Part shown: piece after piece, positions 12,100-42,940 of the stretch | How positions within the stretch are numbered: position 1 is the first letter of the stretch | How the letters are laid out: every line of letters starts with the position of its first letter | NCBI GenBank assembly: GCA_024663395.1 | Contig: JANFAH010000001.1 | Location: 248,001 to 312,000 of the forward strand | DNA length: 64,000 nucleotides | Reading direction: 5' to 3' | Source of the DNA: Pisolithus tinctorius | Lineage: Eukaryota; Basidiomycota; Agaricomycetes; Boletales; Pisolithaceae | Notes under the pieces: model-generated | Database searches by the model: none | What the model was told of the DNA's origin: nothing | What the model saw: the letters and a program-made list of their open reading frames with translations, nothing else | Position numbers and translations under genes: made by a program

Positions 12100-13555
12100 A
12101 GCAATCTGACCATTTTGTTGAACACTGTTTGTAGCTACTCCTTGATCATTGGGATGGTGTCCCACACCTGGAGGCTTTATATTGCATCTCACATGAAAGG
12201 GGGCTCCTGTGCAGATAGGACATCACTTCCCTTGCTGCCAAGATGTGACTAATGTGCAGGCCACAGTGATTGGTCTGCCCTCCTTTGGTTGTGGGCATGA
12301 ACCTTGCATCAACTCCTTTATCTTGATCTGTCTTCATTTTCTGGGTGATGAGGTTTTTTGTGGGGTTGTTGGATGCCAGGCATGGTGTGTTGGTCTGCTG
12401 TTACAGTGGTTGGGGTTTCTCAGTGAGTGGCCATGGCAAATTCTGGTGGTTGTTGTTTGGCACACATTGAGGGTGATGTACTGCAGTTGGGGTTGGGGTG
12501 TGGCCTGTCACACTTATGACAGCCAAGATGACAGGCTGAGATAAAAATGAAGATGTTGTAGCACACAAAATGGGAGAGAGAGAGGGAGAAAGGGAGATGG
12601 AGATGGAGATGGAGGGAGAGGCAGGACAATGGGGGGGAAGTGTCACATCACAAGGAAACACAGTAAGGGAAAAAGCATGCCAGTGACTGGGGGGGATTTA
12701 TATACTTGAGTCTTATGTACTGTTGTTTGGCAATGGTCCAACTAGCAAGGTCACCAGTTTGGCTGCTATGCATGTCACGTTCTTGGCCTTGGCATGTGTT
12801 TGGTTGCTGCAAGTGCCAGCAACTTCCTCTGAGTCAATACCACTTGTTGTACTATACATAGCAAATAGCAATGTCACATGACTCCACTGTCACTGGATTT
12901 GGCTTCTATATACTAAATATACTAAATACTAAAGTTTCATTTGACATTCTCATAATTGCAGTGCTGAGCCAAGCAAGCACTCACTTGTGCCATTGGTTGA
13001 GCAGTAGTGGTGGCTTACTCTTGGGACTTCATAGCAAATGTATTGTAGTAGTACTACTGGATCATTTACTACATGTAGTCAATTATTGAAACTGGAAATT
13101 GGCCCAGCACCAACTGACCACTCCATAAATAGTACTATGTAATGTTCCAGAGATGTGTCTGAAGTACAGGTAAACAGGTGTGATAATCATGACAGTGGTG
13201 ATGTTGTTTATGTCACAATTAAGGTTGTGTCAAGATTATCATAGATCCCACTACATGACAGTGAGTCCAAAATTGAGATCAGTGCATCTGAGTATCTGGA
13301 TTGACACAGTCTCTTGCTCCTCTACTTCCTGCCATGCAGTGTCCACCTCACTGACCATTGTTGTGCTATCCCACTCTCTGGCCTGCTGCACCTCAGCAAA
13401 ATTTTAGGTACATTGTCACCCTCTATATTGCATGGTCTGGATCATACTCACATAAAGCACTAGCATGACATCATGAAATGATCTCTCCCTCAAGATTGTC
13501 ATGTGTTGCTCTCTCACTCAGCACTTCCCACACCTCTCCCTCCCTAAACACAAAA
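12100..13555. other. TG-rich intergenic DNA with a purine tract
   Basis: No gene seen. 12,570-12,625 is a GA-rich microsatellite-like tract (GAGAGAGAGGGAGAAAGGGA then GGAGAT repeats). CpG is nearly absent, as in the neighbouring transposons. Confidence 0.5.
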
Positions 13556-13559
13556 TAGG

Positions 13560-14074
13560 TACATCATCCCTGCGATGCCACATCTCCCTTCCAAAAAACA
13601 AAACAGGTATGTCATCCAGTGTGTGGCATCCCTGTACCACTCACAGAACACCCCCTCTCACTGTGTCTCATGCAGAAATAAGGTTTGTTGTCCCAGCTTT
13701 CAGCATCCCTTTATGACTTACAGAACCCCCCCTCACCTTCAAAAAAATAAAGAAGGTATGTTGTCCAGCATGCAGCATCCCTGTACCACTTACAGAACAC
13801 CCCCTCACCTTATCTTATCCACAAGACAGGTTTGTTGTCCCAGTTCCCAGCATCCCTCTACCACTCACAAAACACCCCCTTGCCATGTCTCTTCCAAAAT
13901 AAAGGTATGTTGTCCCAGTTCCCAGCATCCTTGTACCACTCACAAAACACCCCTTCTCACCATGTCTCATGCAGAAATAAGGTTTGTAGTCCCAGCTTGT
14001 GGTGTCCCTTTATGACTTACAGAACACCCCCTTGCCTTCAAAAAAATAAAGAAGGTATGTTGTCCAGTATGCAG
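13560..14074. repeat. ~78-bp minisatellite, left block
   Basis: About six imperfect units, each with CATCCCTGTACCACTCACAG or the variant CCCTTTATGACTTACAGAAC, a run of C residues (ACACCCCCT), and an AAGGTATGTTGTCCAG or AAGGTTTGTTGTCCCAG block. Unit starts fall near 13,626, 13,706, 13,787, 13,851, 13,927 and 14,007. Two unit types alternate. Short open frames across it are by-products of the period, not genes. Confidence 0.85.
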
Positions 14075-15100
14075 TGTGGGACACTACCTCTGGGTAGCAT
14101 ACAAATAGGGGAAAGCTGTAGGGGAAATCCCTAGGCTCAAGCCAAGGGGTGCTGAGTAGGAAGGAGACATAGAATATGATGGTAGAGTCAGTTGAGGAGT
14201 CAAATGTATGGCATGGAATTTAATTCTGCAGAGTTGTAGGCAAATTGGGTAGGAATAGACTTGCTTTCGAAATTCTGAGTGACAATCTTGACCCGATGAA
14301 GTAATTCCAAGATGAATTAGGTGCACAGGAGGGGAAACAAGGTACTAGTGGATCCAGGACACAAAGATGCAGAAGACACAGTAGATGCAAGTGATGCAAA
14401 GACACAGATACACAGCAGACACAGAGGATGCAAGGACCCTTTGAACACTTTAGACACACATATGACACAGATTGTGAGTCCCAAAAAGATGATGATTCTT
14501 TTTCATTGCTGAGGTGGAATTATATAGTACATGGATAGTAAGGTACTGATTGGAGAAATGTTGGGCAGGTAAAGCAAAATTCTGAAAAACAAAGAGGGTG
14601 ACATGTCAGATGTCAAAGCCATACAGAATCATGTGAAAACAAACTGTACAGTAGTAACCAAGAAAAAAAACAAATGGGAAAGGATGGGTATCTTCCAACA
14701 GGACAAGTGTACATCATACCATGGAGTGGAATGCGAAGGATAGAGGCCATAGATGCAAAGGGGTTCTTGCATTGCAGAGAAAGGTTCATGGGAAAAGAAT
14801 GAGAGGGGTGACCAGAGTTTTTACTGATGATCTGTGTGATTTCCTGGCTATGTGGCAAGGTGAAGGTTGAGGTGACATGACTGCAGAATTCCAGATAGAC
14901 ATATGTCAGGTTGATGTTGACATGGAATTCCAGGATGATGACTGGTGTGTGTTATTGACAGACAGAGGAGCTCCAAAGGTTCAACAGGCAAGGTGGCACA
15001 TGAGGCTGATGCACAAGGCTGATGCAATAATTCCAAAGATGACAGACATGGAACTCTGATAGGGGTTGACTTTGGTAACAGCAGAATTTTGGTGTTGGCA
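14075..15100. mobile_element. ~1-kb insertion interrupting the minisatellite
   Basis: Minisatellite units stop at TATGCAG and resume with (G)CATCCCT, with 1,026 bp of unrelated sequence between. The insert begins TGTGGGACAC and ends GTGTTGGCA, so it has TG..CA ends like an LTR. It contains a short tract of GATGCAAAGACACAGA-like repeats (14,360-14,460) and no gene. A solo LTR or non-autonomous element is possible; no clear target duplication could be identified. Confidence 0.45.
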
Positions 15101-16150
15101 TCCCTATTTCAGCCTCAGGGAGTATACCACTCCCTACAGCAGCATCCCTGTACCACTCACAGAACACCCCCTCACCTCATCTCATCCACAAAACAGGTTT
15201 GTCATCCCAGTTCCCAGCATCCCTCTACCACTCACAAAACACCCCCTTGCTGTGTCTCTTCCAAAATAAAGGTATGTCATCCCAGTTCCTGGCATCCTTG
15301 TACCACTCACAAAACACCCCCTCTCACCATGTCTCATACAGAAATAAGGTTTGTAGTCCCAGCTTGCAGTGTCCCTTTATGACTTACAGAACACCCCCTT
15401 GCCTTCAAAAAAACAAAGAAGGTATGTTGTCCAGTGCATGGCATCCCTGTACCACTCACAGAACACCCCCTCACCTCGTCTCATCCACAAAACAGGTTTG
15501 TTGTCCCAGTTCCTGGTGTCCCTCTACCACTCACAAAACACCCCCTTGCCATGTCTCTTCCAAAATAAAGGTATGTCATCCCAGTTCCCAGTGTCCTTGT
15601 ACCACTCACAAAACACCCCCCTTCTTGCCACATCTCATGCAGAAAAAAGTTTTGTCATCCCAGCTTGCAGTGTCCCTTTATGACTTACAGAACACTCCCT
15701 TGCTGTGTCTCATCACTAAAAAGGTTTGTCACCCCAGTTCCCAGTGTCCCCTGTACCACTCACAAAACACCCCCTCTCACCATGTCTCATGCTTGTGGTC
15801 TCCCTTTATGACTTACAGAACACCCCCCCCCTCTTGCCATGTCTTGTGAAGAAAAAAGGTTTGTCATCCCAGCTTGTGGTGTCCCTTTATGACTTACAGA
15901 ACACCTCAGCATCTCTCATCACAAAAAAGGTTTGTCATCTGAGCTCATGGTGTCCCTGTACCACTCACAGAACACCTCCTTGCCTTGTCTCTTGCCAAAA
16001 AAGGTTTGTCATCTCAGCTTGCAGCATCCCTGTACCACTTACAGAACACCCCCTTGCTGTGCCTCATCCACACCCCCTCACTGTGTCTCATCCTACAAAA
16101 GGTATGTCATCCCAGTTCCTGGTGTCCCTGTACCACTCACAAAATACACT
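15101..16150. repeat. ~78-bp minisatellite, right block
   Basis: About fourteen further units of the same repeat as 13,560-14,074, again alternating TACCACTCACAGAACACC and TATGACTTACAGAACACC types, with variable C-runs. The final units become degenerate near 16,060-16,150. Confidence 0.85.
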
Positions 16151-16496
16151 AGTAGGCTATCAATTCATATCTCCCTCCATCCAATAAGGTATGTTGTTGG
16201 ACTTCTACTTCATGGTGTCCAGATGATACTCACACATCCCCCACTATGGTCTGCTTATCCAGTGCCCAGTGTTGTGTGTAGTTGCATAAATCAGATCACA
16301 TTGGCTTGTCTTTTCCATAAATATGTAGATATCTATCCCTGCTCCATCATATATTTACCAAACTAAATGCATTTATTGTTATCTTATTGCTTGTCCCCTA
16401 CCCCTTTTGTGTCATGTAAAGATAATAAGGTATGCTACTGTTCCCTTCTGTATCACATGTTGCTGCCACTCACTAATGTTGGCATACTAGACTAAG
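16151..16496. other. intergenic DNA upstream of the H3-mimic gene
   Basis: No gene or clear repeat. It would hold the promoter of the gene starting at 16,497; no obvious TATA box was identified. Confidence 0.4.
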
Positions 16497-18084
16497 ATGG
16501 TGAAGACCAAGCAGACAGCTAAGAAGACCACTGGGGGTAGAGCTCCCAGGGTATCTCTTGCTGGTCTAAAAGCTAGGGAAAAACAAGCTGCCAAGTCAAG
16601 CAAGGCCCATGCTAGGAAGGCCCCTGTGGCCAAGAAGAGAAGGATGAGGAACTTGGCAAGTCTCTTGTTATATTCCATCCATCTTTCTAACATTCTATGC
16701 AGTTCTGTGTGATGTGCAGGGATGGAGGGACATTGTGGCCTTGTGATCAGGCAGGTTGCAGAAGGGTAGTGTGTAACAAGTGTGCTGTGGTACCTGAGGA
16801 TTGCCTTGCAGAGGTCATCCAGCTTCCTGTGACCTTCAGGTGTGTTAACCTCCTTTTTATGAATTAATGCCATTGACTCAAACTCTGGATGAACTTCAGG
16901 TGTGTTGCCTATCATTGGAAAATGACAAGATTTGAAAGTTCTCAGCCCTATTTTGTAAGAGCATATTGCCACCCCAATCACTTCTAACTCCAAGTACAGG
17001 GCTTCTACTTGCCAGGCAAGCCAGTCCTGAAACACCCTCTTGTGGTCATTGGGGGGTTTAAGCATGCCACCACCTCTGAAGTGGCCAGTAACTCTACTGC
17101 CATTATCCACCTCCACCTTGAGTCTCTGGAGCTTGGCCATGCCCCTGTGCATATCCTTCACACCATGTTGCAGGGATATTTCACACAAGACACCTACCAC
17201 TTCTCACATTTGCCCTTCAACTTTGCCACTGAGGAGCCCAGAGCTGCCTATGACACTGCAGCATCAGAGCTAGCTTCAAGTCTGACTACCTTTGCTAAGG
17301 TAGTCATTTTCCTTACTACCCATACTGATGAAGACCAGGGGGGTCTGTTCTCTGGAATGGAGAATAAGGTTCCAATAGCCACAGAGGTCTTTGAGGTAAG
17401 TCACCATTGTTTGACTGTCACTCCCATCTGACCAGTTGCAGTTTCTGCAAGGCCTTCTGTTACCCTTCTCCAACATCGTCAAGGGTGGAGACCTCATCTT
17501 CTTTGTATGTGGTTCTACTGTAAGGAAGGAGCAGAGCTTCCAAGGACTGAAGGCAGCTGTGCAACAGTAGGTTTTCTTTCAATGTTGGTGGTTATGGCTG
17601 ACACCATATCAGTTTCAAGCCAAGGTCCATGTTGCTTTTTGATGCTGAGAGACTTCAACTAGTCACCACCATGCCCTTCCTCATGAGTGTCCTTGACTCC
17701 ACCCTTGTTCAAGGCTTCCATGTCCAAAGTGCAGTCAGGTATGCCCTGAATGACTGCAGTATGTTGGGTAGGCACTCCAACATCATCCTGATGTTGTGGC
17801 AGGAGAAGGTAGTGGTGGAGAAATTTATCTGGACTGACAAGTTCATCAGGCCTTGGGGACAACAATTGCCTGCCCAGAGCCCTCAGTGTTATAGCATTCA
17901 GAAGTGGGAAGCTGGTTGTTCAGGGCAGACTTATTCCTATGAGTGCAAGAATCCTGGCTGTGGGAAGGACACACAGGGCACATCTCAGCCTCCCCAAACC
18001 TATACTATCTGCATGTCCAAAGGGGCTACCAAACTGACACAGGGAAAGGGGCAAACATCATCCTGGCTGTTGGAATCTTTGTAA
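16497..18084 (+). CDS. histone H3-tail mimic / PHD-like finger / possible CHAT-like protein
   Basis: Six exons give an open frame of about 437 codons: 16,497-16,625, 16,703-16,839, 16,900-16,954, 17,000-17,395, 17,442-17,566 and 17,613-18,084; all phases agree, but the first donor (GTGGCC) is weak. The product begins VKTKQTAKKTTGGRAPR, matching the H3 tail with K4, K9, T3, T6, T11 and the GG-x-APR stretch kept, then a basic linker. A PHD-like finger follows (CVMCRDGG, CDQAGC, VVCNKC, FRCVAYH; one late Cys is Tyr). The C-terminal half has a strand ending KVVIFLTTH (His about 215) and another ending GGDLIFFVCGS (Cys about 262), an arrangement like caspase/CHAT peptidases, then FDAERLQL and a broken zinc ribbon (CKNPGC). 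There is no histone fold. The overall architecture resembles hypothetical proteins I associate with mushroom genomes; function unknown. Confidence 0.65.
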
Positions 18085-18455
18085 AATACCCTACCTTGAT
18101 ACATATGATATGCATGTACAACAATCAAAAATAGCTGCTTTGTGTTTTCAAATTTCATATGACATTGAATGTTCAGAAAAAAAAGTAATTTCCTGCAGGA
18201 CAATTCCTCCTTAAGTACTGATACACAACTGAGTAAATTTGTCTGATGTTAATTCCAATACAATGGCCAGGTTGATAGAGTTAACTTCAATACCACAGGA
18301 TAAGGATAGGATATAGGATTTTTCCACAACCATGTGGGTTCAGCCAGCTAACTACCAAGGAAGTAGTGTACTGAGTAATAAGATTGGCCAGGCCCACTGA
18401 CCCACTAGCAAGATATTGGTCTTTCTTGCAAAGTGTCTGCCCAACCATAACTCCA
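18085..18455. other. intergenic, nothing recognised
   Basis: Contains the 3' flank of the H3-mimic gene and the approach to the 45-bp repeat. No gene seen. Confidence 0.4.
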
Positions 18456-18459
18456 AGTC

Positions 18460-18985
18460 ATGGTTCATTCCCCCAGCCACATCAGCTGACCCCACTGCCA
18501 GGACATCATCCCTTCCCCCAGCCATGTCAGCTGGCCCCACTTCCAGGTCATCAATCCATCCCATAGCTGCATCAGCTGACCTCACTTCTAGGTCATTAAT
18601 CTATCCCATAGCTGCATCAGCCAACCCCACTTCCAGGTCACTAATTCATCCCATAGCTGCATTGGCTGACCCCACTTCCAGGTCACTAATTCATCCCATA
18701 GCTGTGTCAGCTGACCTCACTTCTAGGACACTAATCTATCCCATAGCTGTGTTGGCCAACCCCAATTCCAGCACACTAATCTATCCCATAGCTGTGTCAG
18801 CCAACCCCACTTCCAGGTCACTAATTCATCCCATAGCTGTGTTGGCTGACCCCACTTCCAGGTCACTAATTCATCCCATAGCTCCATTGGCCAACCTCAC
18901 TTCCAGGTCATCAATCCATCCTATAGTCATGTCAGCTGACCCCACTTCCAGGGCAGTTGATCCATCATCCTGTGACATAGGCCAA
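18460..18985 (+). repeat. 45-bp minisatellite, open as a 15-residue repeat
   Basis: About eleven imperfect 45-bp units of the form CATAGCTG(C/T)(A/G)TCAGC plus CCCACTTCCAGGTCACTAAT. Because the period is a multiple of three, one plus frame stays open from 18,416 to 19,105 and encodes a 15-residue repeat (ADPTSRSLIHPIAVS-like). Whether it is translated is unknown: no signal, start context or homology supports a gene, so I list it as a repeat. Confidence 0.8.
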
Positions 18986-19046
18986 CCCCATCTTCACAGT
19001 CTTGCCTACCCACCCCTAGGGACCACCAGCCAATGTCAGTTAGTCC

Positions 19047-42452: not shown

Positions 42453-42940
42453 AGTCCCAGTTTCAGGACAAAATGTACATGTTGGATGACCCACTTTTAG
42501 GACTACAAGTGACTGAATCATGTGGCCATGGAGTGACTTGAACAACACTTTGCTGCACTCCATCATGTTGGAGTTTAACATATTTACCTTAGTCATGTTC
42601 CAGCAAGCACAGCATTATGTAATCGAAAAAGCGTACACTTTGCAGTTACTTATTCACCTGCACCTCAGCTTCAACCAACTTGAAGTCTGAGGTGAGACTC
42701 ATACATTCTTTCTACAGGACATTTACTTACCTACCTAGAATAATCCTTCCTTTCAGTCCAGTACTTGATTCCCTCTGCAGTTCATCAACCTTCAAAACAT
42801 CATACTCAAGCAACTTTCTGTGCACTATGATGTTTTGGCTGAGCTCACTTTGTGGGACAACCATGGAGATGATGGACCAACAGCATTTGAACCTGTATTT
42901 GAGGGATGAAAGCACCCATCATTTCTAGTTTCATGACATG
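42453..42940 (+). pseudogene. coding-like fragment upstream of Harbinger
   Basis: The plus strand at 42,770-42,905 reads FINLQNIILKQLSVHYDVL and AELTLWDNHGDDGPTAFEPVFEG, then stops. It could be part of the same broken gene that resumes at 47,054 beyond the Harbinger element. Family not recognised. Confidence 0.3.

Follow-up and report, generated by a model that had tools for sequence, protein, structure and literature searches.

A histone H3-tail look-alike joined to a PHD/ADD-type finger and a caspase-like domain in a TET-carrying KDZ transposon of Pisolithus tinctorius

Why would a gene in a mushroom genome begin like histone H3? The question is raised by a gene of Pisolithus tinctorius at 16497-18084 of the 64,000-nucleotide stretch that we analysed (contig JANFAH010000001.1, positions 248,001 to 312,000; hereafter the window, whose features below all lie on the forward strand). 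An earlier note, made from the letters alone, had described an H3-tail mimic fused to a PHD-like finger and a possible CHAT/caspase-like domain, surviving with an open frame in a decayed transposable-element region. The gene does splice, in six exons, to an open frame of 447 amino acids, with its ATG at 16497 and its stop codon at 18082-18084, and the first donor that had been called weak is the GC-AG donor of intron 1, which reads GCAAGT; the remaining four introns are GT-AG. From its N-terminus onwards the protein has an H3-tail look-alike, a PHD/ADD-type finger of C8 form, a caspase/CHAT-like domain that contains a His/Cys pair, and finally a zinc ribbon. Sequence comparison points to a conserved, transposon-borne H3-tail protein, a conclusion far more certain than the mechanism that we propose for it.

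Exon 1 (16497-16655, residues 1-53) carries the start codon, the H3-tail mimic (16500-16550, residues 2-18, VKTKQTAKKTTGGRAPR) and a basic linker, is followed by the GC-AG intron, and has an uninterrupted frame in all 11 copies compared. Set against H3 1-17, the gene start MVKTKQTAKKTTGGRAPRVSLAG is identical at 12 of 17 positions. The next-best H3-like 17-mer across the six frames of the window reaches only 7 of 17, which rules out a chance match. The resemblance seen earlier is thus upheld, by this score and by its conservation in homologues, and the alignment behind the earlier list of substitutions holds, but that list omitted A1V and counted S10T, which is no difference from host H3: KTTGG, with Thr at position 10, stands in those host H3 genes of which exon 1 was read.

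The start is shared by relatives of the gene. We collected 130 homologous proteins (85 at first, 41 more from the 120 listed out of 133, and a last 4), and the homologues named among the matches listed belong to Pisolithus, Suillus (six named species) and Boletus coccyginus. With a tail defined as at most eight differences from H3 1-17, 104 of the 130 have one, in 61 distinct 17-mers; of the other 26, those viewed are for the most part models with a start within the gene, or have a slightly altered tail. Among the 61 distinct tails, the H3 residue is kept at T3 in 58, K4 in 59, Q5 in 52, T6 in 53, A7 in 58, K9 in 59, G12 in 58, A15 in 55 and R17 in 54, with freer positions at R8 (34), S10 (13) and K14 (20). 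Many homologues begin precisely MARTKQTARK. Tail residue 1 is A, V, T or P in 100 of the 104 proteins, and a Met stands immediately ahead of it in 95; small residues such as these after the initiator Met permit Met removal. Because many public gene models extend upstream of the Met that precedes the tail, we infer the true start at that Met from its presence and from conservation.

When five regions were compared among eight representatives, the tail was the best kept in 15 of the 16 pairs of Pisolithus-type with Suillus or Boletus proteins and in 3 of 3 Suillus-Boletus pairs (18 of 19 between genera). Tail identity between genera spans 0.35-0.82, the low values being four pairs of the P0022 subfamily (0.35-0.47); of the 16 Pisolithus-type pairs, 11 lie at 0.65-0.82, one at 0.53, and the other four are those of P0022. 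The linker manages only 0.07-0.38 in 24 of 28 pairs. In this light we consider it very improbable that the H3-like start is a passive leftover of exon shuffling in a transposon that spread well. Recent amplification lets copies stay similar whether or not they function, but the 0.65-0.82 identity in 11 of 16 pairs spans genera, and the 18 tail codons, to which the codon comparison was confined, show 7 identical, 7 synonymous and 4 changed between one element copy (copy A) and the diverged relative L040.

Where the tail came from is suggested by the host genes. Capture of a host H3 first exon is plausible because the similarity ends near L20 and, at two like H3 loci (L036 and L037), exon 1 ends after Q19; at a third, L032, the first intron falls inside codon 13. 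Set against the H3 gene L036, the 18 tail codons of copy A again divide into 7 identical, 7 synonymous and 4 changed. Such a capture would also suit an alternative in which the tail is a mere basic N-terminus, for nuclear import or DNA binding, with no mimicry, and the linker after the tail is likewise lysine-rich. A basic signal needs none of the uncharged residues T3, T6, A7 and G12, however, and their retention in 53 to 58 of the 61 distinct tails therefore weighs against it, as does the poor identity of the linker; we regard this alternative as unlikely.

Diverged relatives also occur in the P. tinctorius genome, at G000:C2:1031117-1032612 (L040), on C27 (L041), on C30 and C69 (L042) and on C22. 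The L040 relative has MARTKQTAKKVTGGHAPR, and the L041 relative has no Met immediately before the tail.

The transposon that carries the gene

The P. tinctorius genome, in which the element context was read, holds at least 40 near-full-length copies of the gene, namely that of the window and 39 others at 95-98% identity (of 60 candidates, 40 were scored). Flanks were read along with the gene in ten of the others, and three copies were extended leftwards; conservation between copies reaches far past the limits of the gene. Three complete elements measure 16,423, 16,409 and 16,903 bp, and all three have CA..TG termini and perfect 7-bp target duplications (TCTGTTC, CTGTGAC and TACCAGT), while copy F shows a 79-bp inverted match, at 89%, between its two ends. 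The same right terminus lies within 6 kb of 38 of the 40 gene copies.

The left arm of copy A encodes a KDZ transposase (PF18758, 94.8 bits, cut-off 26.6) with a CxC2 domain (79.9 bits, cut-off 27). Upstream and on the opposite strand, Tet_JBP scores above its cut-off (36.6-37.0 against 34.9 bits) at 21 of the 40 gene copies, a neighbour count that used 36 of the 150 Tet_JBP places in the genome; copy A itself has Tet_JBP at 24.8 bits, under the cut-off, on the opposite strand. The gene belongs to a TET-carrying KDZ transposon. Copy number and element termini rule out a host gene lodged in transposable-element debris, and the earlier picture of a gene surviving in a decayed region gives way to one in which the gene is the transposon's own.

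TET-carrying KDZ transposons of fungi were reportedly described by Iyer et al. in 2014. With TET-carrying Kyakuja and fungal KDZ elements the Pisolithus element shares a KDZ transposase with CxC2, a TET/JBP gene, 7-bp duplications and CA..TG termini. The KDZ group that fits best, assigned by duplication length and termini, is Kyakuja: in the parts of PMC12730594 available, Kyakuja has 7-bp duplications, CA..TG ends and TET/JBP (section 3.2.1), and is the only TET-carrying family given for Boletales. Two Laccaria Kyakuja families are described there without inverted termini, whereas the Pisolithus element has terminal inverted repeats of about 79 bp; it also adds the H3-tail/finger/caspase-like gene, which those parts of the article do not mention among Kyakuja and KDZ elements.

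Across the genome, 150 Tet_JBP matches were scored, 149 of them over the cut-off; 21 of the 36 compared adjoin an H3-mimic copy (114 were left out). Because their scores range widely, from 33.5 to 75.9 bits, several TET-carrying families are suggested. At C3, C10, C20 and C73 the reported open frame of 462-471 amino acids covers several exons, unlike in most copies, and could reflect read-through or an intron-less form.

The finger and the protease-like domain

Exon 2 (16703-16839) supplies cysteines 1-6 of the finger and exon 3 (16900-16954) its final two ligands, the second being Tyr103 in the window copy. The finger has eight invariant Cys columns in 11 members, with ligands in PHD order and ligand 5 a Cys, not a His. 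The earlier note, which spoke of a PHD-like C4-type finger, had the class right, in that the profile is of the PHD/ADD class, but the finger is C8 rather than C4; similarly, its FRCVAYH motif is what the window copy reads, but the majority of ten other copies have FRCVACH. Compared as a profile with solved PHD/ADD readers in the PDB, the finger matched SP140 (2e-6), PHF21A (1.8e-5) and ATRX (5e-5). It scores below Pfam curated cut-offs (DNMT3_ADD at 15.8 bits against 27 in member 1; PHD at 11.2 against 24 in Boletus P0129), and the best E-values among other members are 5.4e-4 for DNMT3_ADD and 2.1e-3 for PHD (4 of 11 members each).

Like the PHD/ADD readers PHF21A/BHC80, AIRE, CHD4, SP140, ATRX and DNMT3, the finger has the characteristic Cys spacing and a glycine-rich CxxC-x-DG core followed by the third Cys. 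It differs from them in having eight Cys, one of which takes the place of the His (the aligned ATRX ADD does likewise), in lacking the preceding Cys-rich GATA-like finger, and in that a K4-contacting acid is not general. At the positions that we take to correspond to the acidic contacts with R2 and K4, the residue after the third Cys is Asp in 6 of 11 members and otherwise N, N, Q, S or A, and the residue two before the first Cys is acidic in 2 of 11. Such acidic PHD residues contact R2 and K4 of H3, according to the available part of PMC3214078.

The caspase/CHAT-like domain begins in exon 4 (17000-17395), with His225 at 17321-17323, continues in exon 5 (17442-17566), with Cys272 at 17508-17510, and ends in exon 6 (17613-18084), which also holds a C-terminal zinc ribbon, recognised from its Cys pattern, and the stop codon. 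The His/Cys pair proposed before is therefore present, but at these numbers instead of about 215 and 262. It corresponds to His220 and Cys267 of P0028; in the predicted model of that protein, strand 212-218 precedes His220 and strand 261-265 precedes Cys267. Across two alignments, of 22 and 24 proteins, the His is near-invariant and the Cys invariant or near-invariant, and both are kept in a distant Boletus protein. Of the findings that the earlier note had named as refuting it, two could be looked for and neither occurred: the aligned homologues keep both the H3-like start and the His/Cys pair, and two predicted models agree with the clan CD fold that had been suspected, their best fold match being SAVED-CHAT, with caspases next.

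A plain Foldseek search of the first model against the PDB gave nothing at E ≤ 0.001 and rows of mixed folds. The ranking comes from a second aligner run over Foldseek's top 1000, outside which no fold could appear, and the second model was fold-searched solely by that aligner on Foldseek's top 1000. Among 24 members there was no match to Pfam CHAT or peptidase C14 at E ≤ 1, and the whole protein matched no Pfam family above cut-off in the tables shown; weak CK_II_beta matches (12 of 24 members, best 4.6e-4) were set aside as looking like a zinc-finger cross-match. The protein is like the CHAT/caspase peptidases (SAVED-CHAT, TPR-CHAT, caspase-3 and -6, MALT1) in predicted fold and in placing a His after one strand and a Cys after a later one, and unlike them in having no sequence-level Pfam match. 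Its His-Cys distance is 47 residues, against 42 in TPR-CHAT (H585 and C627, in the available part of PMC9729208). The gene models of Suillus P0112, P0119 and P0124 do not stop at the family domain but add a second C-terminal part, which may be a neighbour gene fused to it.

Could the domain be a catalytically dead scaffold, in a protein that brings the transposase or TET to chromatin? A targeting factor could well have such a finger and zinc ribbon, and the partner genes sit in the same element. A scaffold of this kind sits poorly with a His and a Cys held near-invariant or invariant through both alignments and as far as the Boletus protein, and we give it a small chance.

The split window copy and its CpG pattern

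Matches to the element cover about 12513-14067 and 15145-19046 of the window. A left remnant of the transposon (12513-13411) is 83% identical to copy A, its CpGs decayed mostly to TG or CA. Between the divergent genes lies a block of 75-bp tandem repeats (13587-16093) with an insertion at about 14080-15140, judged by alignment to L017, and past the gene the element continues with 45-bp subterminal tandem repeats (18468-18952). Both repeats (75-bp at 13587-14074 and 15140-16093; 45-bp at 18468-18952) vary in length among element copies. The right terminus of the transposon (42453-42524; 72 bp at 96%), which ends ...GACTACAAGTGACTGAATCATGTG, stands 23.4 kb further on, on the same strand, beyond a nested insertion (19047-42452) that has AGTCC at each of its joints and, towards either end, a direct repeat of 414 bp at 86%; from these features we conclude that the element was split by a later insertion, possibly an old long terminal repeat element. 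Within the 64-kb window we found no left arm encoding transposase and TET.

Compared with the majority of ten other copies, the window copy lacks two cysteines, at 103 (a zinc ligand of the finger) and at 380, and because of these losses it is probably decaying despite its open frame. That frame, which the earlier note had taken as a sign of selection, reflects recent amplification more than selection in this copy.

In copy A (G000:C19, L029+L009+L010), the observed/expected ratio of CpG is 0.00-0.12 in gene stretches and 0.27-0.57 at the ends, and rises to 0.82-0.94 in the block of repeats that separates the divergent genes. Over a block of 867 bp in the window copy, which is the older one, all 43 CpGs present in copy A are lost, 38 of them to TG or CA, and a single CpG stands elsewhere. 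As a pattern of sequence, this fits host CpG methylation of the element, with promoter and terminal blocks protected while the element was alive. The CpG contrast in copy A could be the mark of methylation together with local removal by the element's own TET.

A proposed role for the H3-like start

As a working mechanism, an accessory gene of a TET/JBP-carrying KDZ transposon would encode a four-part, chromatin-facing protein. Removal of the initiator Met would leave a chain that begins A/V-R/K-T-K-Q-T, as H3 does, and this exposed end may serve as an H3 surrogate. In cis, the tail would occupy the protein's own finger and hold it off until nucleosomal H3 competes; in trans, it would engage host enzymes and readers that act on H3 residues 1-9. 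The protease-like domain would be the effector, and the protein would work with the TET dioxygenase of the element, whose target is 5-methylcytosine, to oppose transposon silencing. That the protein combines H3 surrogate, reader and protease-like effector and works alongside TET to this end has in our estimate close to an even chance of being right, its steps of binding, cleavage and anti-silencing being ones that we infer. More tentative is the fuller proposal that H3-tail imitation, an H3 reader and a CHAT-like protease would, with TET, disarm both DNA methylation and H3-based silencing, the in-cis tail switching the reader and the protease.

The same parts could be arranged otherwise. The putative protease might act on H3 or another chromatin protein, with the H3-like end shutting its active site, as a pseudosubstrate or propeptide, until H3 competes. 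The predicted clan-CD-like fold, the near-invariant His and Cys and the reader-type finger would agree with this, as would conservation of the tail up to R17, since a PHD finger alone usually contacts less of the H3 tail; the predicted models do not place the tail, and we judge such an arrangement improbable next to the H3-surrogate mechanism.

Histone mimics are reportedly known from influenza NS1, SNAG domains and G9a, and the Pisolithus protein is like these viral and host mimics in having a short H3-like sequence that it would offer to H3 readers or enzymes. It differs from them in being encoded by a transposon, in its N-terminal place and length of about 17 residues, and in being joined to its own reader-type finger and protease-like fold. 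We know of no transposon-encoded H3-tail mimic. None was among the literature matches listed, and the sequence data of PMC12730594, of which part was available, may hold an unrecognised copy. Taken singly, histone mimicry, PHD/ADD fingers, CHAT-like domains and KDZ/TET transposons are all familiar; a transposon protein that joins them is not known to us and was likewise absent from the matches listed, and the function set out above is our proposal.

Transposons carry DNA demethylases and, at times, histone methyltransferases, as the available parts of PMC12730594 describe; imitation of the histone tail, if true, would be a new route by which a transposon meets silencing. The protein may unite a reader with its ligand in a single chain and, on its predicted fold, is a candidate chromatin protease in mushrooms. 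Its tails amount to a natural collection of H3-tail variants, from which one can tell which H3 residues count for any reader of the tail, with K4, A7, K9 and G12 kept and S10 and K14 free. Such an architecture suggests a transposon of ectomycorrhizal mushrooms that mimics chromatin in answer to the silencing of its own DNA.
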